64,000 nt of DNA from Hoplostethus atlanticus. Its lineage: Eukaryota > Chordata > Actinopteri > Trachichthyiformes > Trachichthyidae. The DNA lies in NCBI GenBank assembly GCA_034670405.1, contig JAXDDX010000053.1, positions 62,001 through 126,000 on the forward strand, given 5' to 3'. The position numbers and the translations under genes were made by a program. The notes under the pieces are model-generated. The model made no database searches. It was not told where the DNA came from and saw nothing but the letters and a program-made list of their open reading frames with translations. Of this stretch, positions 32,776 through 64,000 are shown one piece after another (the stretch's first letter is position 1; each line of letters begins with the position of its first letter).

Positions 32776-34342
32776 ATGAGCAGCGCTGTAAGTTTCACCT
32801 CTTCAAGTTTGGGTTTTCTTGTGCATATAGTTCATATGAATATGATGAAAGGAAAGGCAAAAGGTAAATATAGCTGCTAGTGGAGATCCCGGGGTTCACG
32901 CCTTAATCACGTTTAAGCCCAACATGAGTTATATGCCCTTCTTGCATAGGCCACGCCCACATCAACCAAAACCACATCATTATGGTGGACTTGATCTGGC
33001 TACCAAGTTTGGTGTCAATCATACTTGCCCTTTAAAAATGAAAAGTTTGATTCTGATCTTGCAAATGCACTTTGATCTACAAGGTGTTACATACTATTCC
33101 ATGATTCTTATGGGCTAGACCACGCCCACTTCCACTAATTACAGCCAAACTTCATATTTTGACGAGCACTTGGTCTACAGCATGTGTACTAAATTTCATA
33201 CAATTTCATACAAATTTCATACAATTTCAGTGATTGGAGTAAGAGACCATTTTTGTGTCCTCTGCGATAGGGGGGCTCTATTGCAGTCTTGCTCCGCCCA
33301 TTAAGTTCATTGGTTGGTGGTGGCCATATTGTTTATGCAATTGGGCCCATTTATTTAAGAACTGTGTAGGTATGTCTCCTAAATCAGTTTACCAAATATG
33401 GTCTTTATTGGTCATAAATCGAAAAGACCTCCAACAGGCAGACTTTGGTGTTGCTGGAGGCACATTTGTAGCTCGGCTAGCTGATATGTGCAAGATTTGT
33501 GTCAAGGTTTGACTTTTAATTGCAGCGCCCTCATCTGTATGATTGGGGTAGTATTTGTTGGGAGGCATTTGACCACCATGTACACCATGTGATAGACCAC
33601 ATCAAATCAGTCTAGGCCACGCCCACATATGGCAATCATGTGCACCACATTCCAACAATCACAATAGGAGATGTACATAATTGGACTTGGCACCCCTATG
33701 GGCCAATTATACAATACTAACTCAGTACCTCTACTGAACTTATGTACCAAGTTTAGAAATGAGTGGAAATGGCTATTTAGGTTCCTTCTGCATGTGCACC
33801 AAGTTTGGTATTTACTGGTCAAAAACTGAAAAAGCCTTCGGGGGGGACAAACAGAGCACGCTGCAGTCAGCTCCAACATGGGGCTGTATTTTAATATCTA
33901 TATCATTTTATCAATCTCTGCTGATCCCCTTGCACAGTAGATCTGGTTTGTTGACACATAGGAAGTGATCTGCTAGAGGATCTGTTGATCCCCTTGTGCA
34001 GTAGATCTTTCTCTGTGCTACACAGTACAGTAAATCAACAGTACTATTTATTATAGCGTAACGTTGAAACACATTGAAACATTCATTCCAGACTCAGAGG
34101 AAGAGAAGAGGGACAAGCAGCCCTCTGGTTTCCAGACCCAACACCAAGAGCAGCAGGACGGCTAACGCTAGCAGGACGGCTAACGCTAGCAGGACGGCTA
34201 ACGCTAGCAGGACGACTAACGCTAGCAGGACGACTAACGCTAGCAGGACGGCTAACGCTAACAGGACGGCTAATGCTGACCCTACCCCCCCCACAGAGAC
34301 CATTGATGTGTTGGACAGCACTGCAGCCAGTGAGTGTGTGTC

Positions 34343-34391
<49 letters not shown>

Positions 34392-37300
34392 ACACACAGG
34401 AGGTGTGCTTTGGTCCTTTGAAGTTGATCAGTGGTGTGTGTGTGTGTGTGTACACGTGCAGGTGAGGAGGATGTAGTAGATCTAACCTGTGAGGGATCAG
34501 AGCCAGCTGCTGTTGTTGACCTGACCAACAACGACTCAGTGGTGGTGAGAAACACACACACACACATACACATACATACATACATACATACATACCTGGG
34601 TTTCCTGCTGGAAGTGTGTTAAGGTGCTTTCAGGTGCAGCAGTAGATTCACTAGCTGGCCTCCACGTCCAGAGAGCGAGGTGGATGTTAATACATCAGAC
34701 CTGCTGCGGTGGGAGGACGAACAAGTTGAAATCAATTAAACTTTTCCAATCAGAATCTGGAGGCTTCATCTCACAGCTAATCAAATGTTAGGCATGCACC
34801 AGATCAATGGGAGAAGGTAGAACGCTAGCTAGCCAGTTGATGTACTAAGACTACTATACGACTGAAACATTTCACTCCACTTCTATGAATTGTTATGCCT
34901 TCCCAGAAAAAACCCCTCAAAGTTACAATGGCAAGTTTAGTGCGTTAGCCAGCTAGATAGACTCAACTAACGGCCATGACATCACATGACATGACATCAC
35001 ATGACATAACATTGCAACTAGTCATTGGTTTCTAAAAAAAAATATTTCATTGCAATTCTATTAATCAAAATTATAATGGAAATTACAATATCAAGGGAAT
35101 TAGTCTGCAATTTTAATTTTTGTGATAATCCTGCAGCACTAATATAAATAGAGAACAAAATTGGACCGAGGATGGATCCTTGGGGTACCCCACAGGTAGA
35201 CTGAGCTACAGAGGATGTATAACTATTCAGGTCTACAGAGATCAATTAAGATGTTGTGATTGACAGTATCAAAAGTAACACTAAGGTCCAGTAGAACCAG
35301 AATGGGTCAACGGTATCAGCTGTAAACTGTTTCTCTGATAAATCATTACTGCTCATGTACACAGTTAACCGATTATAGACCTGGTCTATTATATACCGTT
35401 TCCAAAACCGTAGCCATGAAGGGGAGTTAAGAAACGGGTCTGTAATTGCTAAGAATGGAAGGGTCCAGGCTGGGCTTTCTAAGAAGTGCACGTTTGAAAT
35501 ATGATGACAAAAGGCCAGTAGCCAATGAGCAGTTAGGGTTAGACAAACTGCATCACAGACCTCTTGTAGGAGTCTAGTTGGGATAAAATCTAGAGGGCAA
35601 GATGAACATTTCATATGAGAAACAATCTCAAGCATCCAAGCAAATTAAGTTGAAATAATCCACTAGATTTTCAGGTAGACAATAACACAGCAGACTGAAT
35701 TGGCACAGTCAATCTTGGTGTTAATAGTGATAAGAATAACGGTGAGGCCCCCACCCTGGCTTTCACCAGGCCTAAGCCAGGTTTCTGTTACAAATCCAAG
35801 TTGTTGGTTGTAATAAAATCATTTTAAAATAAGTCTCACTAGATAAAGATATAACTAACATGTTTCACATCACTGGTAGTAACAGCCGGAACCAGTAAAA
35901 TTATGGATCGGACTCTGGAGCTGAAGGCCTTGCAGTATTTTAAAACAAGCTCCATGTTCATGGCTAAAAAACATGAACCAGCTCGGTTGGGGTGAAGGAG
36001 AAAGGAAAAAGGTAATAGAAGTAGCCTTTAAGCCTGATGTGTAGTTGGCGTAGTAGGGTGAAGTTCACGTCGCCAAAGTGAGGGGAGGTAGTGGGCCGGA
36101 GAGCACTGCCTGCCAGAGTCTAGAGGAGTGTCAAAAGGGTTATAAAGTCCTCCTTTCATTTGCTCCAATTGCTGTGATCTGATGTTGTTGGCACCCGCAT
36201 GTACAATGATGGCAGAAGCTGAGTGGTGCTGTTGAGCACATGAATTCATGTCCTGGACTCGAGCACCCGGGTAGCAAAAGGGCATTGTGACATGTCAGAC
36301 CATGGAAAAGCCTACCAACAGCATGGTGGGAGGAGACTGTCCTCATGACCCACCTGGGTAGCTGGGCTCTCGGTGTGGTGTTTATGCATCGCCTGGCGAG
36401 GACTTTAGTTTTAATGCATTTGATGGGAATTATCAATATTTTTTTTATTTTTGCGTCATTGCCATCATTACGACAGACGTAACAACAGGAAAACAACGTA
36501 AAAGACGTAAAAGAGGGAGACGAGAGGGAGAGTCGACCATGGAGAAAAGGCGTCTAGTGAATGTGATGTCCGTGCAGGGTAACTAGTAGCGACATGGATG
36601 AAAGTGAACCAGCCAACATTGCCGACGGAGCATTCCCCATCCATGGCCTTATTTAAGAGAAATGTTTGAAGTTGTCAGCTCTAAGAACAAAGTGTGTTCT
36701 CGTGTTGATCATAATGTTTCGAGTTCTGTTGCTGACATTGAAATCTGATTTGCACATTGGAGCGAAGTTAATGTTATTTTCAGTATATTGTTTTTTATTT
36801 TATTTGAAGTTAGAATTAATAGTATAATAGTGTTAATAGTCTTCAAATTATATTAATCTGACGTGAGGTTCAGTTAGCTTTGCACAGAAACAGCCGGTAG
36901 AGGGCTACTATTACTTTTTACTTTTATACTACATACATTTCAGAGCCTGTACTTTTTGACTTTTACTTAAGTAAAGAAGTTGAATCAGTACTTATACTTT
37001 TACCAGAGTCTTTTTTTACATAAGTATCTGTACTTCTACTTGAGTAAAGAATGTGTGTACTTTTGCCACCTCTGGCCTGGAGATGTGAACAGGCAATCAA
37101 CAGGAAAAGCAAATGCAAACACTTTTCCAAGTCAACACAACCAGTCATGTCATATTCTAGACTAATCAGACAATGACACCCTGAAGAATTCACAAGTTCA
37201 CTAGTTCTCTGAGACCGAAGCTGCAATCATGTCCTTTTGCTCATACGAAACAGCTGAATTTTGTTTCTGGAGCAGGTATCTACCATCTTTAGTGGAGGTG

Positions 37301-40300
37301 GCAGTGATTATGTGAACCTCCTCATTGGTGCCAGTGTGGAGTTTGTCCAGCAGGGGGCACTTGGGTCTCAATTTAAGACTGTTTTGTTTATTTTATTAAG
37401 GTAGCTCCATATATGCACACACACAGTCTGGCTGTCTACAGTTAATTTACTTGCACTTATTAAAGGCGAACATCAGCCATTTGATTTCATAGTGTTCAAT
37501 GTTTATGTGAGTGCTGTCAAAGGAAACAAATCCATGCCTGGTTTTACTGCCTTGCCTTTGTTTCCATGGTCAGAAGTCACAGCAGCTCTACAGACAGTAG
37601 TGATGAAGAGGATTTGGGTGGTGATATACAGCCAGAATATCCAAATGTGGAGTTGGAGCAGATGGAGAGGGTATCTATCATTCATGAAAACTGCATTGTG
37701 TATGGCGTTGTTACGGTGGCCCTAAGGTGCACAACACAATGACATTAGCGAAGCAAACAAAAGCTGACAACATAATAACATTGATCGACAACACAACAAC
37801 ATTAACAGAAACGAAACATTTCTGAAAATGCTGCATTTGAAAAAACAAACAAACATGTACAACACTGCGACATTACATGACAACACAACAGCATTAATCG
37901 ACAACACAACATTAATCTACAACACAACATTAATCGACAACACAACAACATTAATCTACACAACATTAATCTACAACACAACAACATTAATCTACACAAC
38001 ATTAATCTACAACACAACAACATTAATCTACAACACAACATTAATCTACAACACAACAACATTAACCCACAACACAACAGCATTAATCTACAACACAACA
38101 ACATTAATCTACACAACATTAATCTACAACACAACAACATTAATCTACAACACAACATTAATCTACAACACAACAACATTAATCTACAACACAACATTAA
38201 TCCACAACACAACAACATTAATCTACAACACAACATTAATCCACAACACAACAACATTAATCTACAACACAACATTAATCTACAACACAACATTAATCCA
38301 CAACACAACATTAATCTACAACACAACATTAATCTACAACACAACAACATTAATCTGCAACACAACAGCATTAATCTACAACACAACAACATTAATCTAC
38401 AACACAACATTAATCTACAACACAACAACATTAACCCACAACACAACAACATTAATCTACAACACAACATTAATCTACAACACAACAACATTAATCTACA
38501 ACATAATTGTTGTTGTGTTGTGAGTTAATGTTGTGTTGTGGATTAATGTCGTTGTGTTGTAGATTAATGTTGTTGTGTTGTGGGTTAATGTTATTATGTT
38601 GTCAGCTTTTGTTGGCTTTGTTAATGTTGTTGTGTTGTGCACCTTAGGGCCACCGTACATTGTGTTCCTGTTATAGTTCTGCGCTCCACTCACTCCCATT
38701 GGGTTTATATATGATGATGCTGCCACCTAGTGGTTCTGCAGGCAGCAGTCTTCAATTATGTTATACAGCATTTTAAGTCTTAATTCAGTTTAAATGGCAT
38801 TAAAAAGTCTTAAAGTGAAGTCGATCAAACTTGCAGACACCCTGTTTGAGAGAAACAGTAATTGTGTTCAGATGAGATTATCATCTGCCGTCAGAAACAA
38901 AGCTCTCAATGAATTGATAATGGAATCTAAAGAACACCAAAAGTCAACAAGGAGCAAAATTGAATTAGAAAACTAAATGACCTTTCCATAATGTGTTTTT
39001 GTCTTTTTCATGACTTGCTGTTGGCTGATGTGATGGGATCCCAGGTGGTGGATGAAGGTAAAACACCAAGTTTTTAATCTATTAGCATAAAACTGCTAAT
39101 CCACCAGCTAATCCCATAGTAGCTGGTAAACCAGCCAAGTACCTTTTTAGAATAAAGCCTTCAAATAACTGTAATTTTACCAAGCATGTGGCTGTGGGTA
39201 CCAGCCTAGTACTGAAATACTCTCATAGATGGTATTAGAGTACATTTGAAATATTGTGAAAGATCATGAGCAATTTTATCTTGCAAGGCCATCTTACCTG
39301 TCCTACCTTAATATGTATCAGACAAACAGCTAAACTTTGTATGAAGCTCATCGTACCAACAAGTTGCACCTCATCGTTTATACACCTTTCTCTTGCTTTC
39401 CATCTTTGAACGTGCACCCTCCACACCCCCCTGGCCTTCATCAGGTCCTCAGAGCAGGAGAGAGACCAGCAGTGAGAGTTATGTTGTGAGCAGTGATGAA
39501 GAGGAAGACCCCACCACTGTCCTCAATGCTGCCTTATTGTCCTCCCTACAGGCCAGTAGCCGAGCCAGGTATTAGCTACATCCCTCCTTGTGGTAGGCTA
39601 GCACAGTGGTTCTCAATCCGGTCAAGGAACCCCTGTCCTGGAGGTTTTAGCTCCAGCCTTACTCAGGCACACCTGAACCAATTAAAGTATCATGAAAACC
39701 TGAAACCTCTAATTGGTTCAGGTGTGCCTGAGTAAGGCTGGAGCTAAAACCTCCAGGACAGGGGGTCCTTGAGGACTGGATTGAGAACCACTGGGCTAGC
39801 AGAAGGTTGGTCTTGTAGCCCGGTATTAACCACGTCCCTCCTAGTGATAGGCTAGCAGAAGGTTGGGCTTGTAGCCAGGTAATAACCACATCCCCCCCTA
39901 GTGGTAGTCTAGCAGAAGGTTGGTCTTGTAGCCAAGCATTAGCCACATCCCTACTAGTGGTAGGCTAGCAGACGGTTGGCTACTGCCTGGTATTAGCCAG
40001 ATCCCTCCTAGTGGTAGGCTAGCAGAAGGTTGGTTTTACAGCGGATATTAGCCACATCTCTCATAGCGGAAGGCTAGCAGAAGGTTGGCTACAGCCAGGT
40101 ATTAGCCATATCCCTCCTAGGGATAGGCTAGCAGAAGGTTTGTCTTGTAGCCAGGTATTAGCCACATCCCTCCTAGAGGTAGGCAGAAGGTTGGTCTTGA
40201 GGTAGAAGACCTCATAATAGAGCTCAGTAGAGATTCATAACAGCCCAGCCTTCTATAGCAGTGTTAAGTATTGCTTTGGTAGAGCCCAGTAGAGTGTTAA

Positions 40301-42379
40301 CTTGTCTATCAGTAGAGCTCAGTGTTAACTAGTATGTGTTTTCCAGGGCGACTCCAGGGACGATCAGCTGTCCAGTGTGTATGGATGCCTACACTGAGGT
40401 CAGATACTATAAACCTCTTAATTATGTATGACTTGTTAAGCAGTGCAGTTCTACTCAAGATTATTGTACCCTTGAACAACTTTCAGTCTTCACACATTCA
40501 TCTGTTTTATTTTAACAGCACATGATCAAACGATAAGAATACAAATGGCCATGATTATTTGCATCCTTTTCTAATTCATAGTTGCAGCCTTTGTCAATGA
40601 TGATGGTTCCAGATGTTTCTTGTAACCACCAGTAAGCTTCCTGCACCTTTATGCTGCCAGTTTCTCCAGCTCTTCAACTGCAACCCTCCAGTTCTTCAAC
40701 GTTTGATTGATTCTTTTGACCACAGTTGTCTCACCATTAGTTCTCCATGGGATTGAGATCAGGACTCATCGCCAGCCGCTCGTTTTCTCTTGAACCATTC
40801 CTGGTTCTTCTGGATGTTCTGGGTGTCCTGCTGGAGCACCCAGGACCTTCCATTGACACCCAGTTTTCTGACCCTGGGTAGAATATTTCTCTCCATAATG
40901 CCTTGGTAACCTTCTGATGATGCCCTAAATACGTTCAAGACGTTCAATACCTGAGGCAGCAAAACAGCCCCATGGCATTATGGGACATCCACTGTGTTTG
41001 ACTGTAGGTAGGGTGGTCTTTTTTTTCATTTCATCGTAAACAAAGCGCTGATCTGCATTGCCAAAGAGCTCTAGTTTGGTTTCATTGGTTCACAGAACAT
41101 CAATCAGGCCTTCTTGTGTTTCTCTTTCAGCAGTGAGGTCTTCCTCTGACAGTAAAGCCCTTCTTGGTTGAGTGTCTGGTGTATGGTACGGGCTGAGACC
41201 ATTACCAGACCACTCCAGGTCAGCCTGAAGATCTGTGCATGTCATGCAAGGTCTTTTTTCCAAGGGCTCACACCAACCCTTCAACGGCATCTGAGATCAG
41301 TTTTCCTCTTACCACCATGTCCTGGGAGATTCTGAAAAATTCCATGAGCAGCAAACTTCTTAATAACATTGCGAACTGTGGAACCAGGAACACCAAGGTC
41401 TCTAGAGATGCCTTACAGCCTTGTGAACGCTGATGTTTGGTGATAATAGTTTTTCTAACATCCTCAGACTCTTTCCTCTTTACCTTTTCACAGACAACCA
41501 GGGAAGCAGAACAGACCTGCAGCCTGTCACAGTTGAGTTGAATTACACTGCAAATGAGAATCTATTTCCTCCAACAAAATGGATTTGAATTGTTCTAAAG
41601 GGTGCCAATAATCACTGCCAATTAATTTTGAAGCCATAAGATTATTTTAAATTTGTATTATTGTTTGATCACGTGCTGAGGTGAATGTGTGAAGACCGAA
41701 AGTTGTTTCAATTATTGTTATTAAAGTTATTGTACATTATCTGCACAAAATGCAAGGGTGCAATAATCTTGGCCAGAACTGTAAATGTGTTTTCCTGTCT
41801 GTCTCTCAGATTGTCGACACCGGTAGACTGGTCGTTTCTACTAAATGTGTTTTCCTGTCTGTCTCTCAGATTGTCGACACCGGTAGACTGGTCATTTCTA
41901 CTAAATGTGTTTTCCTGTCTGTCTCTCAGATTGTCGACACCGGTAGACTGGTCGTTTCTACTAAATGTGTTTTCCTGTCTGTCTCTCAGATTGTCGACAC
42001 CGGTAGACTGGTCGTTTCTACTAAATGTGTTTTCCTGTCTGTCTCTCAGATTGTCGACACCGGTAGACTGGTCGTTTCTACTAAATGTGTTTTCATGTCT
42101 GTCTCTCAGATTGTCGACACCGGTAGACTGGTCGTTTCTACTAAATGTGTTTTCCTGTCTGTCTCTCAGATTGTCGACACCGGTAGACTGGTCGTTTCTA
42201 CTAAATGTGTTTTCCTGTCTGTCTCTCAGATTGTCGACACCGGTAGACTGGTCGTTTCTACTAAATGTGGCCACGTCTTCTGCAGCCAGTGCCTCCGAGA
42301 CTCTCTGGCCAGATCCCATACCTGCCCTACTTGTAGGAAAAAACTGACACATCGACAGTACCATCCCATCTATATCTGA
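32776..42379 (+). CDS. rnf4: RNF4, SUMO-targeted RING E3 ubiquitin ligase, seven coding exons
   Basis: RNF4 recognises poly-SUMO chains and ubiquitylates the modified protein in the nucleus. Coding exons are 32776-32787, 34092-34329, 34462-34544, 39045-39057, 39445-39568, 40347-40398 and 42230-42379 (672 nt, 223 aa; human 190). Phases agree at every junction. The N-terminus is MSSA-TQRKRRG, a basic motif shared with human RNF4, then a fish-lineage SRTANA hexapeptide repeat. SUMO-interaction motifs are VVDLTCE and AVVDLTNNDSVVVVDE, followed by acidic SYVVSSDEEED. The RING finger starts ISCPVCMDAYTE and continues GRLVVSTKCGHVFCSQCLRD, then CPTCRKK. It ends YHPIYI, the conserved C-terminus needed for RING dimerisation. 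Two exons end in or next to tandem arrays that copy their splice sites. An alternative model uses any of seven earlier acceptors for the last exon. Confidence 0.93.
32855..33600 (+). repeat. Interspersed repeat in rnf4 intron 2
   Basis: 32860-33045 matches the reverse complement of 51400-51575 (taaatatagctgctagtgga ... ggccacgcccacatcaacca). The rest resembles 12900-13260. Ends and class unknown. Confidence 0.75.
34151..34279 (+). repeat. 18-bp coding repeat in rnf4 (SRTANA, seven copies)
   Basis: agcaggacggctaacgct and close variants encode SRTANA three times, SRTTNA twice, SRTANA, then NRTANA. It lies between the basic N-terminus and the first SUMO-interaction motif and accounts for most of the extra length relative to human RNF4. 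Confidence 0.93.
34330..34388. repeat. (GT)n tract at the rnf4 exon 3 donor
   Basis: The donor GTGAGT at 34330 passes directly into GTGTCTGTCTG(TG)n. The following acceptor (acacgtgcag at 34452-34461) is also preceded by a TG tract, leaving an intron of only 132 nt. Confidence 0.9.
34990..36290 (-). mobile_element. LINE with RT and ORF1-like pieces in rnf4 intron 4
   Basis: The minus strand reads STCGVPQGSILGPILFSIYI (the RT palm motif preceding FADD) and HMKCSSCPLDFIPTRLLQEV. Further right, near 36030-36285, it reads SASAIIVHAGANNIRSQQLE, which resembles the esterase-like ORF1 of fish L2/CR1-type elements. The order right to left is ORF1 then RT, as in an antisense LINE. Frameshifted. Confidence 0.75.
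36930..37080. mobile_element. Short hAT-type MITE-like segment
   Basis: tgtactttttgacttttact and its near-inverse agtaaagaatgtgtgtactt bracket about 130 bp of ACTT-rich sequence typical of fish non-autonomous hAT elements. Target duplication not resolved. Confidence 0.4.
37714..38655. mobile_element. 942-bp TIR element built of ACAACATTAATCT repeats
   Basis: The ends are CGGTGGCCCTAAGGTGCACA and its inverse, with imperfect inverted similarity extending about 75 bp (including aaacaaaagctgacaacata on both arms). TA flanks both ends (37712-37713, 38656-38657). The interior is a minisatellite of acaacattaatctacaac units. Open frames on both strands (NTTLIY / CCRLML repeats) are by-products. Non-autonomous; superfamily not assigned. 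Confidence 0.8.
39045..39057 (+). CDS. rnf4: rnf4 13-nt microexon (VVDE plus one base)
   Basis: ATCCCAG precedes and GTAAAA follows GTGGTGGATGAAG. Inclusion completes the SUMO-interaction motif region as NDSVV-VVDE-G and is the only way I found to reconcile phase 0 of exon 4 (ends 34544) with phase 1 at 39445. Human RNF4 has DSVVIVDE at the same place. Confidence 0.8.
39565..40205 (+). repeat. 56-bp array copying the rnf4 exon 6 donor
   Basis: About nine degenerate units of agccaggtattagccacatc, cctcctagtggtaggctag, cagaaggttggtcttgt. The first unit starts inside exon 6 (gccgagccag/gtattagctacatccctcc), so several later units carry a copy of the exon end and GT donor. Confidence 0.85.
39604..39793. 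mobile_element. 190-bp hAT MITE with 8-bp target duplication
   Basis: The ends CAGTGGTTCTCAATCCGGTC and GAGAACCACTG are inverted repeats of the Charlie-like hAT type. ggctagca flanks both sides (39596-39603 and 39794-39801). The arms continue inward over almost the whole length (gttttagctccagccttact and its inverse). Inserted into the first unit of the 56-bp array. Confidence 0.92.
40446..41781 (-). mobile_element. Tc1-like transposon relic immediately before the rnf4 last exon
   Basis: The left end CAGTTCTACTCAAGATTATT and the inverse of the right end (CAGTTCTGGCCAAGATTATT) are TIRs. TA (41782-41783) follows the right end; the left has TG, probably a mutated TA. The minus strand encodes a broken transposase (TKLELFGNADQRFVYDEMKK, HSGCPIMPWGCFAASGI, RSWVLQQDTQNIQKNQEWFK). 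Its right end is only 28 nt upstream of the first rnf4 last-exon acceptor. Confidence 0.88.
41782..42269 (+). repeat. 60-bp x 8 array of the rnf4 acceptor plus exon start
   Basis: Each unit is ttttcctgtctgtctctcag, attgtcgacaccggtagact, ggtcgtttctactaaatgtg: a polypyrimidine tract, CAG, and the first 40 coding bases of the RING exon. Acceptor-linked exon starts fall at 41810, 41870, 41930, 41990, 42050, 42110, 42170 and 42230. Units differ at two visible sites only (gtcattt in copy 2; ttttcatg before copy 6). No stop occurs in the rnf4 frame through the whole array. Confidence 0.97.
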
Positions 42380-42790
42380 ACATTGGGACTAATTTTCAAT
42401 TAAATATCAATGCTAGGATGGCAAATGCTGGTCAATATGTGTTTGTATCTGGTAAGTTAGTCTACACGTAACCAACCATCATTTGGAGTCCTGTTCTATT
42501 AACATTTAGTTGGCTGCTAAAATGGTGAAACTGGTTGGTGAATTTTGGATAAGAAGTTGGCTTCCTGCCCTCATGGAAACCTCTACTGTATTTTTTTTTT
42601 CCAGTTTTCCAGCCCATGTTTGTTTTTTTGCTTTTTCAATCTAGTCACATCTTTTTCATTTTAGTTGGATATGCTCTGTGAAATACCTTTCCCTCTTCCT
42701 TTAGGAGATGTTGGGCCATAAGACCACTGGACTGTTTTATATAATTTTAGTTTTGTTTGCTGTCTTCATTGTAATGGATAATTGTGTTAA

Positions 42791-44700: not shown

Positions 44701-44854
44701 TATTACGGAAGTCGCAGAGTCGCAGTGACAGAACAGAGGCAGCTTCGGTATTTAAACTGCGCCACCGACGGAGATCTGCGTCTGTACACGTTAGAAATCA
44801 GCGAACAGATAGTTCCATATCTGAGGAGAAGAAAGCCCTGGGCCGGTTGTCAGC

Positions 44855-49680
<4,826 letters not shown>

Positions 49681-51711: not shown

Positions 51712-54700
51712 CTAAAACATGTCGTCAAAGTCTTCTCCGGTGTCAAACAGAGAGCCTGCAGGCAGGAAGGGGCTTTGCTGCTCAGTAGGCGGAGCCTGCT
51801 TACTGATGGATTCATGACACTTTGGCCTTGTTAGCTTGTGGGCGGGCCCTTCCTCAAATCCACAGAGACTGACAACTGACTTGAGCCTATTGGATATGAG
51901 ATGACCCGCCTCGTTGTCTGAGCAGTTCTGCCCACAGCCCCTCTTCCTCCCAGAAAGCTCCTCTTCTTCGTCCTTCTCATCCTGGCAGCCAGCGCTGAAG
52001 AACTGAGTCCATCTGGAGCTGGAGGAAGAACCAGGAAAGGAACCAGTATGGCGACCAGTCGGAGGACCAGTATGGCGACCAGTCGGAGGACCAGTAAGGC
52101 GACCAGTCGGAGGACCAGTATGGCGACCAGTCGGAGGCCCAGTATGGCGACCAGTCGGAGGCCCAGTATGGCAACCAGTCTGGGTACTGGAAGCTGCGTT
52201 GAGTGTACTGGGAGTACTGGTGAGAGCAGCTCTATTCCTGACTGGGCTGCTGGGAGGTTTCTCCCACAGACTGGAGGAGTTTGGCTGGTGGGAGAGAGGA
52301 AGTCAACAGGGTCAGTCTGATTTAGTGTTTTTATAATGTGGCGGTGGGAAGCCCTTTGAGACTGACACTGACATCCCTAGGTTAGTAGTGATGTCAGTGT
52401 TACTAGTGGTATCAGTACACTAATGACAGTAGTGATGTCACAATGACAGTAGTGATGTCAGTGTTACTAGTCACTACTCACTAGTCACTGTCACTACTGC
52501 TGGGGCTTTAACTTTGAAAAGGATTTCTGTTGAAACCTTTTAATTATTAATACAATTATTGATCATTTGACTAAAATGTTTTTTTTTTTTTAATGTACTC
52601 AGACTGTATACTAATGGTACTAGTGAGTAGTATTATTAGTAGTGTTACCTGTCCAGGTGTCCACCAGTCCTCCTCCCCTCTGGGAAAACTCCTCCCTCCT
52701 TCTCTCCATCCACCTCTTCTCTTCCTCTTCCTGTCAGGACGAAGAGCAGCATCAGCAGCTCGGATCAGAGGTCACAGCACCCAGACAAGAGGTGCAACAA
52801 ATACTCTGGTGAGCCTACAATGATGCTAACCCAGTATCCTGGGTTAGTAAAACCAGTACCCTAGGTTAGTAAGACTAGTACCCTGGGTTAGTAAAATCAG
52901 CACCCTGGGTTAGTAAAACCAGTATCCTGGGTTAGTACAACTAGTACCCTGGGTTAGTAAAATCAGTACCCTAGGTTAGTAAGACCAGCACCCTGGGTTA
53001 GTAAAACCAGTATCCTGGGTTAGTAAGACTAGTACCCTGGGTTAGTAAAACCAGTATCCTGGGTTAGTAAGACCAGTATCCTGGGTTAGTACAACTAGTA
53101 CCCTGGGTTAGTAAAACCAGTATCCTGGGTTAGTAAGACTAGTACCCTGGGTTAGTACAACTAGTACCCTGGGTTAGTAAAATCAGTACCCTAGGTTAGT
53201 AAGACCAGCAGCCTGGGTTAGTAAAACCAGTATCCTGGGTTAGTAAGACCAGTATCCTGGGTTAGTACAACTAGTACCCTGGGTTAGTAAAATCAGTACC
53301 CTAGGTTAGTAAGACCAGCACCCTGGGTTAGTAAAACCAGTATCCTGGGTTAGTAAGACCAGTATCCTGGGTTAGTACAACTAGTACCCTGGGTTAGTAA
53401 AATCAGTACCCTAGGTTAGTAAGACCAGCACCCTGGGTTAGTAAAACCAGTATCCTGGGTTAGTAAGACCAGTATCCTGGGTTAGTACAACTAGTACCCT
53501 GGGTTAGTAAAATCAGTACCCTAGGTTAGTAAGACCAGCAGCCTGGGTTAGTACGACTAGTTCCATGGGAGTAGGTCAGCACAGGTTTTGGGGTTAACAC
53601 AGTGAAACTGCAGAACTTTGTTTGTTCACCGGTAAACAAAGTGAAGACCGTGAAGCTGGACTCATGTCAACTGATCCTTGTTGAGCTGGTAGCGAGCATG
53701 GTGTGGTTCACATCTGACATGGTCTCCTACACAAACTACTACCAGCTACTCCCTGCTGGTGTACCAGAGTGAATCAGGACATACCTGACAATGCTGTTGC
53801 CATGGATCTGGTTTCTGTCCATCAAAACATTCACCGATGGCTCCTCCTCGGGCTCCTCCTCTGTCTCCTCCTCCTGTGGTTTGTCCAGGTATTTACTCCA
53901 GCGACTCACCTGAGGTTCTTCTACCTAAAGAAACACGGTGAGAAGTTAGATCAATCAACAGATAGACATCGACATGTACAAGTCAACACTTAACTCACCC
54001 TCTTCCCATCATTCTCCACAGGCCTGTCCTCGCCTCCTTCAGCTTCCTCCCTTTCAGGAAAACCAGATAACATCAGAGGACAGAACTAGATTTTGAGATG
54101 TGTTCAGAGGGTGTTGGAATATAGTGTTGAGAAATAGCTGTTGCCTGGTGTTATGCATTTAATACAGCTATGAGTGTATTTAATAGTTAAGTTACCATAG
54201 TGACCAGGCTATCTGTTCCTGTTCCTCCAACATGGCTCCTCGCCTCATGTTCAGTTTCTGGACATGGTGTCTGCAGTCGGCCCCGGAGCCACGCCCAAAC
54301 TCCTATGCAATCAACAGACAGTTGACAGGAGTTTTCATTCCAACGTTACATCATTTGACAAAGTGGTAAATCCAGTACAGCAGTTACCTTGAGAATAGAC
54401 TGCTTCTCTCCACACATCTTACAGCTCCATCTCTTGGTATTTTTCACCTAAGAAACACACAGCTTCTCTTTAAGTGAACACGTATTGTCCCAATACTTCT
54501 GCTGACTCACTGAATGGCATTGTTGTAATATAGTTCAACATATAAAATAAACGTAGACGTTGAGAATTTTACCTCAGTTATTGTTTGATTTGAAATACAA
54601 ATTTGATTAATACAGAGAAAAAAACACCAACCAATTCAACACAACTGTCCCAATACTTTTACATTTAACTGTATAAATTCAGCTTGATATGACTCATCTA

Positions 54701-62992: not shown

Positions 62993-63595
62993 TCAGACTG
63001 AATGTTGGGCCAGTTCATGATCGCTGGAGGAGCTAGTCTGCCTCTCCACTGCCCGTTGAGCCTTGCAGGCGGCCATCTTGGCCTGAATGTCCCCCTTCTT
63101 CTCAAAGTAGTCCACGAGGGTCGGCTCCGTCAGCAGTGAGGCTAGCACCTGCTCAAAGGTGATTGACCAATCCCCATCCAGTATGCTTCCTCGCCTCTGC
63201 TCACCACAACCAATCAGGACGGTGTCATCGGCGATGTCTTCACACTGCAGCGATCCGGCGCTCACCATGGAGTAGGACGACACTGACATGTCGTCTTTGG
63301 TTTCCTCGTCAGACGTCTGCTGTGCTGGAGTCTCCAGCTGGGCCTCAGCCAGAGCCCTGCAGACCTGGGACTCACTTGACACTCCTTCCCCGATCCACTC
63401 CTCCTTCTCAGGTTCGGAGATGAGGGGGACTGGTGAGGCTGTTTTTTTGGAAGCGCTGCTGGTAAACTTCTTTCCCACTTCTCCGATGCGAAGCAGCAGG
63501 CTGGCCACGGTGGCGATGGCGTGGTATAACTCCTGTTCTAGAGGCTCCTCACTGAACATGTTGTACAGCGTTTTACAAAGCTCAATGAACTGCTC
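62993..63595 (-). CDS. tbc1d9b: TBC1 domain family member 9B, last coding exon (partial gene)
   Basis: This exon encodes the C-terminal 200 residues of TBC1D9B, a Rab GTPase-activating protein of endosomal membranes. The catalytic TBC and GRAM domains are not in this window. It opens EQFIELCKTLYNMFSEEPLE and continues LYHAIATVASLLLRIGEVGK. A variable linker is followed by the conserved DDMSVSSYSMVSAGSLQCED, WSITFEQVLASLLTEPTLVD and FFEK-like YFEKKGDI. It ends SDHELAQHSV and TGA at 62993-62995. The acceptor is CTTCTCCAG/GAGCAG at 63595, phase 0. The in-frame stretch upstream (MFCLSQSLS...) is intronic. Same strand and order relative to mrnip as in human. Confidence 0.93.
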   Translation of the reverse strand, partial: EQFIELCKTLYNMFSEEPLEQELYHAIATVASLLLRIGEVGKKFTSSASKKTASPVPLISEPEKEEWIGEGVSSESQVCRALAEAQLETPAQQTSDEETKDDMSVSSYSMVSAGSLQCEDIADDTVLIGCGEQRRGSILDGDWSITFEQVLASLLTEPTLVDYFEKKGDIQAKMAACKAQRAVERQTSSSSDHELAQHSV

Positions 63596-64000
63596 CTGGA
63601 GAAGACAGACAGACGTTATCCGGTAAGACAAACTCTGAGACAAACAAAACAAACCATCATTACTGTGGCAGGATGAGACCTTATATCTTCATATGTGATT
63701 TTCACACAATGTAAACAGCTACAAATTTCAAACTGCCGTAAGTCTACACTGGAGCAAAATGACTAAAATATGTTGTGTGTTGTGTTTGGGGGGTGCAAAC
63801 AGAGGGTTTGAAGGGAAACAGATGGGAATTTGTACATTTGGTTTCTATCAGAAAAGTCAGAGCAGGAAAAAAAAAAATAATAATAATCCAAACAAACAAA
63901 AGAGCGGTCTGGTTGAAAAGGCCTGATAAAGTAGCCCACAGCTTGATTCATGTTGGGCAAAACTGCCAGCCATCAAATCCTCATTGTTTGCGGAAGACAA
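63596..64000 (-). other. tbc1d9b intron
   Basis: Intronic sequence between the last exon and the next upstream exon, which lies beyond the window. No feature beyond a short poly-A/AAT run at about 63870-63890. Confidence 0.7.

Follow-up and report, generated by a model that had tools for sequence, protein, structure and literature searches.

The last coding exon of rnf4 in the fish Hoplostethus atlanticus begins within a tandem array in which its own 3' splice site stands eight times, and the question that this locus raises is which of the eight acceptors is used and what protein results. The window, as we use the term, is the whole stretch of 64,000 nucleotides that was analyzed; coordinates refer to it unless a contig is named, and the features on which the argument turns are collected in Table 1.

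The acceptor array and the gene that carries it

Judged from its sequence, the gene that carries the array is rnf4, with a C-terminal RNF4-type RING. The best matches of the last exon are the RNF4 RING structures 4ap4, 2xeu, 3ng2, 4ppe, and 2ea6, and Pfam assigns this exon to zf-RING_2 (E 1e-9). The penultimate exon terminates in CPVCMDAYTE, in phase 0, ahead of the donor GAG^GTCAGA (score 5.94; the caret marks the splice boundary), a phase that fits the last exon, and the intron between the two exons appears to contain what we take to be a Tc1-like remnant. Farther upstream, near 34462, lies EEDVVDLTCEGSEPAAVVDLTNNDSVV, which we take to resemble the tandem SUMO-interaction motif (SIM) region of RNF4. 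Shortly upstream of this SIM-like region, at 34152-34277, seven 18-bp units of SRTANA repeats can be read through in the frame of what appears to be an upstream exon of rnf4.

A further copy of rnf4 was rejected as far as the best-scoring candidates in the assembly show. Of the 73 matches listed for the 49-residue exon, eight represent this locus (the exon plus seven upstream copies); no second rnf4 last exon in the 633 Mb was found among the best-scoring candidates, and the next best by E-value among the candidates scored is a RING with only 46% identity (E 6e-4). The array locus therefore probably has to supply RNF4. Rnf4 lethality is known from mouse but plays no part in this argument.

Tandem Repeats Finder, run on the window, places 8.1 copies with a period of 60 at 41782-42269, with matches at 99% and indels at 0%. 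The preliminary description of a 60-bp unit repeated eight times almost without change is borne out, with two substitutions across the 480 bp of 41782-42261, three distinct unit sequences, and a mean pairwise difference of 0.5/60. The variant in copy 2 (G to A at 41894) changes V to I when read as exon, and that in copy 6 (C to A at 42095) lies within the pyrimidine tract and changes L to M upon read-through. Exon starts fall at 41810 + 60k, the final one at 42230. When the array was used as a DNA query against the 633-Mb assembly (1161 contigs), its locus was matched in full once, and the only other match listed is an array in chm that we describe below. Of the window, 16.3% is tandem repeat when every period is counted and 15.0% when only periods of 10 or more are. 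The array as such plainly exceeds chance.

Other repeats and open frames are present in the window. Downstream open frames at 44825-49436 resemble sqstm1/p62, with a ZZ domain (Pfam) at 45931-46320 and, presumably, a PB1-like start that has no Pfam match; in-frame open repeats of 6 bp (46579-46639) and 21 bp (49289-49375) lie in this candidate sqstm1/p62 neighbourhood. A 24-bp array of 5.8 copies (52042-52180, 96% matches) falls inside open frames of both strands, and a 231-residue open frame on the minus strand (62996-63688), with no Pfam match, presumably resembles a TBC1D9-type protein.

Table 1. Features of the rnf4 locus and of the chm array (window coordinates unless a contig is named)
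Feature	Position	Strand	Remarks
Decayed eight-unit donor array, about 56 bp per unit	39564..40199	+	donor of the preceding exon; unit 1 is the real donor CAG^GTATTA
190-bp insert splitting the first donor unit	39604..39793	.	8-bp target duplications GGCTAGCA at 39596-39603 and 39794-39801
Penultimate rnf4 exon	40347..40398	+	first half of the RING, RATPGTISCPVCMDAYTE
Last rnf4 intron, to acceptor 1	40399..41809	+	1411 nt, donor GAG^GTCAGA
Intronic TAAATGTG, left direct-repeat member	41782..41789	+	8-base identity with 42262; presumed role in seeding
Eight 60-bp tandem units	41782..42261	+	TAAATGTG, pyrimidine tract, CAG, and bases 1-32 of the last rnf4 exon
AG of acceptor 1, most upstream	41808..41809	+	product would have seven additional 20-residue blocks
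Acceptors 2 to 7	41868..42169	+	AG at 41868, 41928, 41988, 42048, 42108, and 42168; exon starts 41870 + 60k
Eight TACTAAA motifs	41839..42265	+	starts 41839 + 60k
AG of acceptor 8	42228..42229	+	yields the canonical RING
Canonical last rnf4 coding exon	42230..42379	+	second half of the RING, ends YHPIYI stop
Exonic TAAATGTG, right direct-repeat member	42262..42269	+	8-base identity with 41782
chm/REP1 acceptor array	C127:472054-472274		3.9 copies of a 56-bp unit, 99% matches, out of frame

Boundary repeats elsewhere and the origin of the array

The intron preceding the penultimate rnf4 exon opens with a decayed array of donor sites. The donor of unit 1 recurs unchanged in units 7 and 8, is stronger in unit 3, weaker in units 2 and 5, and gone from units 4 and 6. 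Use of a downstream donor copy would insert TAT TAG, that is, a stop. The insert that splits the first unit is presumably hAT-like. In a genome search with this donor array, the sole other match listed is the exon edge at 39564-39603 (90% over 40 bases).

The final unit of the chm array continues into an exon of Rab escort protein 1 (1ltx, E 4.5e-10), and this exon, searched against the assembly, gives one match. The upstream acceptor copies read CAG^ATT and the last reads CAG^GTT. All three upstream acceptors run into stops (at codons 44, 44, and 41), so the protein is obtainable from the last acceptor only. Used as a DNA query, the chm array is matched 65 times; these matches take in the array itself and two pieces of the rnf4 array, and the remainder are mostly 66-77% identical, with one that reaches 93% across some 40 bases. 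At C127:489110-489804, roughly 17 kb away from the chm array, we observed a long array with a roughly 34-bp unit and TTTTACAG in each listed copy.

Scans of the genome for threefold acceptor patterns found 279 places for CAGG/Y8NCAGG (230 reversed), 334 for TCTCTCAG (278 reversed), and 128 for TTTTNCAG (102 reversed), with no clear genome-wide excess in any of the three. Overlapping places in one array are recounted in these numbers, and CT-rich stretches or simple repeats make up many of the places listed, which are a subset of these totals. The scans neither prove nor exclude further cases and, since they give no clear excess, we do not claim splice boundaries as preferred sites for such arrays.

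Minisatellite-like repeats that span 3' or 5' intron-exon boundaries have been described in amphioxus as mirages, in the genes for Adh3, the globins BflGb6 and BflGb9, TnC, and PGBD5, and are reported there to be without effect on normal splicing (PMC3087553, PMC3902484). Length instability belongs to their description (PMC3087553); PGBD5 has 60- and 108-bp repeats covering splice sites, and the Adh and TnC mirages are reported to generate no aberrant mRNAs (PMC3902484). Like these repeats, the units in rnf4 and chm are tandem, minisatellite-like, and placed over an exon-intron boundary; in rnf4 both the 3' and the 5' boundaries are duplicated and the copies carry splice signals, the donor being lost in two of eight units. 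The unit length is also comparable, at 60 bp in rnf4 against the 60/108 bp given for PGBD5 and the 10-72 bp given for Adh3. Unlike the amphioxus mirages, the rnf4 array is in a teleost and lies within the RING-coding part of a gene for a SUMO-targeted ligase, and its units are nearly identical, a multiple of three in length, and open in frame. Because the rnf4 and chm arrays have the structure by which mirages are defined, we class them as mirage-type repeats in a vertebrate, without implying that they share ancestry with those of amphioxus. Among the results listed in searches of open-licence literature, none reports an array in rnf4 or a mirage in a teleost.

It might be asked whether the array is an artefact of the assembly or of the individual, its copy number being wrong or the haplotype a damaged rare allele. 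A single assembly is our basis, and one amphioxus mirage was apparently misassembled in a draft genome, according to the legend of the authors' supplement (PMC3087553, PMC3902484). Nevertheless, the multi-megabase contigs (C53 is 3.0 Mb) suggest long reads, the single-base differences among the copies speak against a simple duplication error, and another such array is present in chm; we consider an artefact very improbable.

In human segmental duplications, internal tandem repeats at exon-intron boundaries shift exon/intron edges (PMC2812944), and they resemble the rnf4 array in that minisatellite expansion alters such edges in a coding gene. The human case, however, is described mainly as exon elongation and the creation of new introns, and an eight-fold acceptor does not figure in that description (PMC2812944). 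Intron gain of the type proposed by Rogers (PMC2891723) is similar in that tandem duplication carries extra splice signals into a coding region, but it requires the proto-splice site AGGT, which is absent from two successive rnf4 units. As the unit lacks AGGT and duplicates an existing boundary, a new intron is not expected, and we do not assign the array to this mechanism. The CTNS repeat was likewise set aside as a parallel because it is described as wholly intronic (PMC5628181). In fishes, intron gain has been described for ray-finned species (PMC3151243) and tandem repeats for Nothobranchius (PMC2688266). The cod genome, repeat-rich like that of the present fish, is described as having thousands of tandem repeats in coding regions (PMC5241972); the main text of that paper does not use the word 'splice'. 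Unlike cod and its relatives, which are reported to have lost MHC class II beta (PMC5894186), this fish retains it, with four matches in the assembly, and a kinship with cod, considered because of the repeat load, was rejected on this ground.

As to how the array arose, the 8-bp direct repeats TAAATGTG coincide exactly with both of its edges, and the simplest account is probably a duplication between them with later expansion and homogenisation. The intronic and exonic TAAATGTG, 60 bp apart, would have permitted an initial tandem duplication, which slippage or unequal exchange, in a repeat-rich fish genome, may then have expanded and homogenised to eight copies. The edges of the chm array show no long direct repeat by eye, so this manner of seeding need not be general.

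Choice among the eight acceptors

All eight acceptors lead in the same frame to a common stop ending at 42379, with 0 to 7 added blocks of 20 residues; the upstream forms are in frame rather than stopped because 60 is a multiple of three. The earlier claim of eight in-frame acceptors with an open tract thus stands, each having been translated to that stop, as does the claim that only the last acceptor gives a canonical RING: the predicted C2-C3 loop of the RING is 18 + 20n residues (n = 0 to 7), and a spacing of 18 is unique to acceptor 8. Every inserted block contributes one extra Cys. The RING consensus for this spacing is C-X9-39-C and, since one block gives 38, inside that range, use of acceptor 7 need not destroy the RING.

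What found no support is the suggestion that the in-frame period and open tract are special. The chance of frame compatibility was taken as 1/3, for a period that is a multiple of three, times the share of acceptor-like sites in the window whose seven preceding codons are open in the phase tested, which is 142/171 when the array's own copies are excluded (150/179 when they are counted). The result is about 0.28, and a chance probability of this size makes frame compatibility weak evidence for function. Given this value and the out-of-frame chm array in the same genome, the compatibility looks incidental.

Splice signals were scored with provisional acceptor and branch matrices. With the provisional matrix, acceptors 1-8 score 8.93 bits each, a value equaled or exceeded by 122 of the 8759 AG sites on both strands of the window, the array's eight included. 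Upstream in the same intron, four AG sites score higher; they fall within or close to the transposon remnant, and the best of them (exon start 41131) reaches 11.05 bits. TACTAAA motifs 1-7 are the predicted branch sites for acceptors 2-8, and the eighth lies inside the canonical exon. As the preliminary description proposed for the exonic motif of each unit, TACTAAA is the best branch candidate at normal distance for the next acceptor, 26 nt from the exon with no intervening AG (score 4.06, acceptors 2-8); the best candidate for acceptor 1 is CTGTAAA, with 2.22 on the provisional matrix. Owing to its private C to A change, acceptor 6 has an additional, closer candidate (4.59 at 15 nt), and save for that change acceptor 8 is indistinguishable from acceptors 2-7. 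In-frame acceptors of one exon compete here as they do in NAGNAG sites, but we did not assign the array to that class, as the spacing is 60 and the branch candidates are separate, with no shared branch site. First-step recognition applies to 3' sites more than about 12-20 nt apart (PMC9225289); with acceptors 60 nt apart, each having its own branch candidate and tract, the choice is expected to be made at that step.

ACTAA occurs eight times on this strand in 40400-42380, every time within the array. In mammalian cells, Quaking and SF1 compete for ACUAA branch sites, and strong repression of RAI14 exon 11 needs two ACUAAC elements (PMC13004596). Since UACUAAA is found at acceptors 2-8 only, with CUGUAAA at acceptor 1, a Quaking-dependent shift to acceptor 1 is conceivable: in tissues with high Quaking, acceptors 2-8 would be blocked jointly and a seven-block RNF4 made, with the canonical form elsewhere. 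The array motif is ACUAAA and the UAAY half-site is absent from the array, which weakens this reading, and we regard such a tissue switch as highly improbable. If it were true, the number of copies would determine how strong the switch is and how large the insert.

Another reading is that several acceptors are used appreciably, so that RNF4 would exist in forms whose C2-C3 loops measure 18, 38, 58, and so on to 158 residues, and copy number would act as a heritable dial. The shared open frame, the equal acceptor scores, and the spacing of 38 with a single extra block are all consistent with this, and simultaneous binding of two U2AF, or of two U2 snRNPs, has been reported for a pre-mRNA with two 3' sites (PMC5389562). 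However, frame and openness arise by chance with the probability calculated above, the chm array is out of frame, each block would place a stray Cys in a zinc-binding domain, and the published mirages are reported without aberrant mRNA (PMC3087553, PMC3902484); we therefore think a RING series of this kind unlikely. The same dual recruitment by duplicated 3' sites (PMC5389562) and the identical acceptor scores could also be read as a brake on splicing, in which upstream acceptors trap U2AF/U2 non-productively and a longer array lowers rnf4 output while leaving the protein unchanged. Because mis-splicing in frame is not expected to trigger decay, the rnf4 array would make a poor brake compared with that of chm, and we give this reading little credence.

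Our preferred reading, which we hold to be probable, is that the rnf4 array is a mirage-type minisatellite on a splice boundary from which mostly the last acceptor is used, the upstream ones being used weakly. The TAAATGTG repeats at the edges, the near-perfect copies, a window with 15% repeats, the recurrence in chm, and the donor array in rnf4 support it, as does the branch motif, on which acceptors 2-8 outscore acceptor 1. Expansion would have produced eight equivalent acceptors; most mature rnf4 mRNA would be spliced to acceptor 8, giving a normal RING, and weak use of the upstream acceptors would give in-frame forms with lengthened RING loops. We infer the TAAATGTG-based origin, the dominance of the last acceptor, and the weak use of the others alike. 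Taken separately, it is in our judgement quite likely that acceptor 8 is the source of most rnf4 mRNA, and the chances that another acceptor is used detectably are about even.

Dominance of the last acceptor is suggested by its being the only one predicted to give canonical RNF4, with no second last exon found among the best-scoring candidates, by analogues that are reported to splice normally, and by chm, which would need its last acceptor. The length of the last intron also points this way: long flanking introns significantly reduce, without reversing, the preference for an upstream 3' site, as reported for internal exons only (PMC9225289), and 1411 nt is a setting of such reduced preference. 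Against it stand the intron-centric rule of Reed and Maniatis, by which the upstream of duplicated 3' sites is preferred (as cited in PMC9225289), and the human genome-wide pairs of 3' sites, in which the upstream one is favoured (PMC9225289), a preference that long introns merely reduce; the signals of acceptor 8 are, moreover, no different from those of acceptors 2-7. The chm edges without a long repeat, the scans without a clear excess, and the provisional matrices count against the preferred reading.

These findings extend to a bony fish the boundary repeats known from amphioxus, and a single gene has both a 5' and a 3' case. Eight acceptors of equal score and spacing, taken with the out-of-frame array in chm, amount to a natural experiment in the ranking of equivalent 3' splice sites by the spliceosome. 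The rnf4 locus may also offer a measurable link between the length of a minisatellite and the form of a protein.
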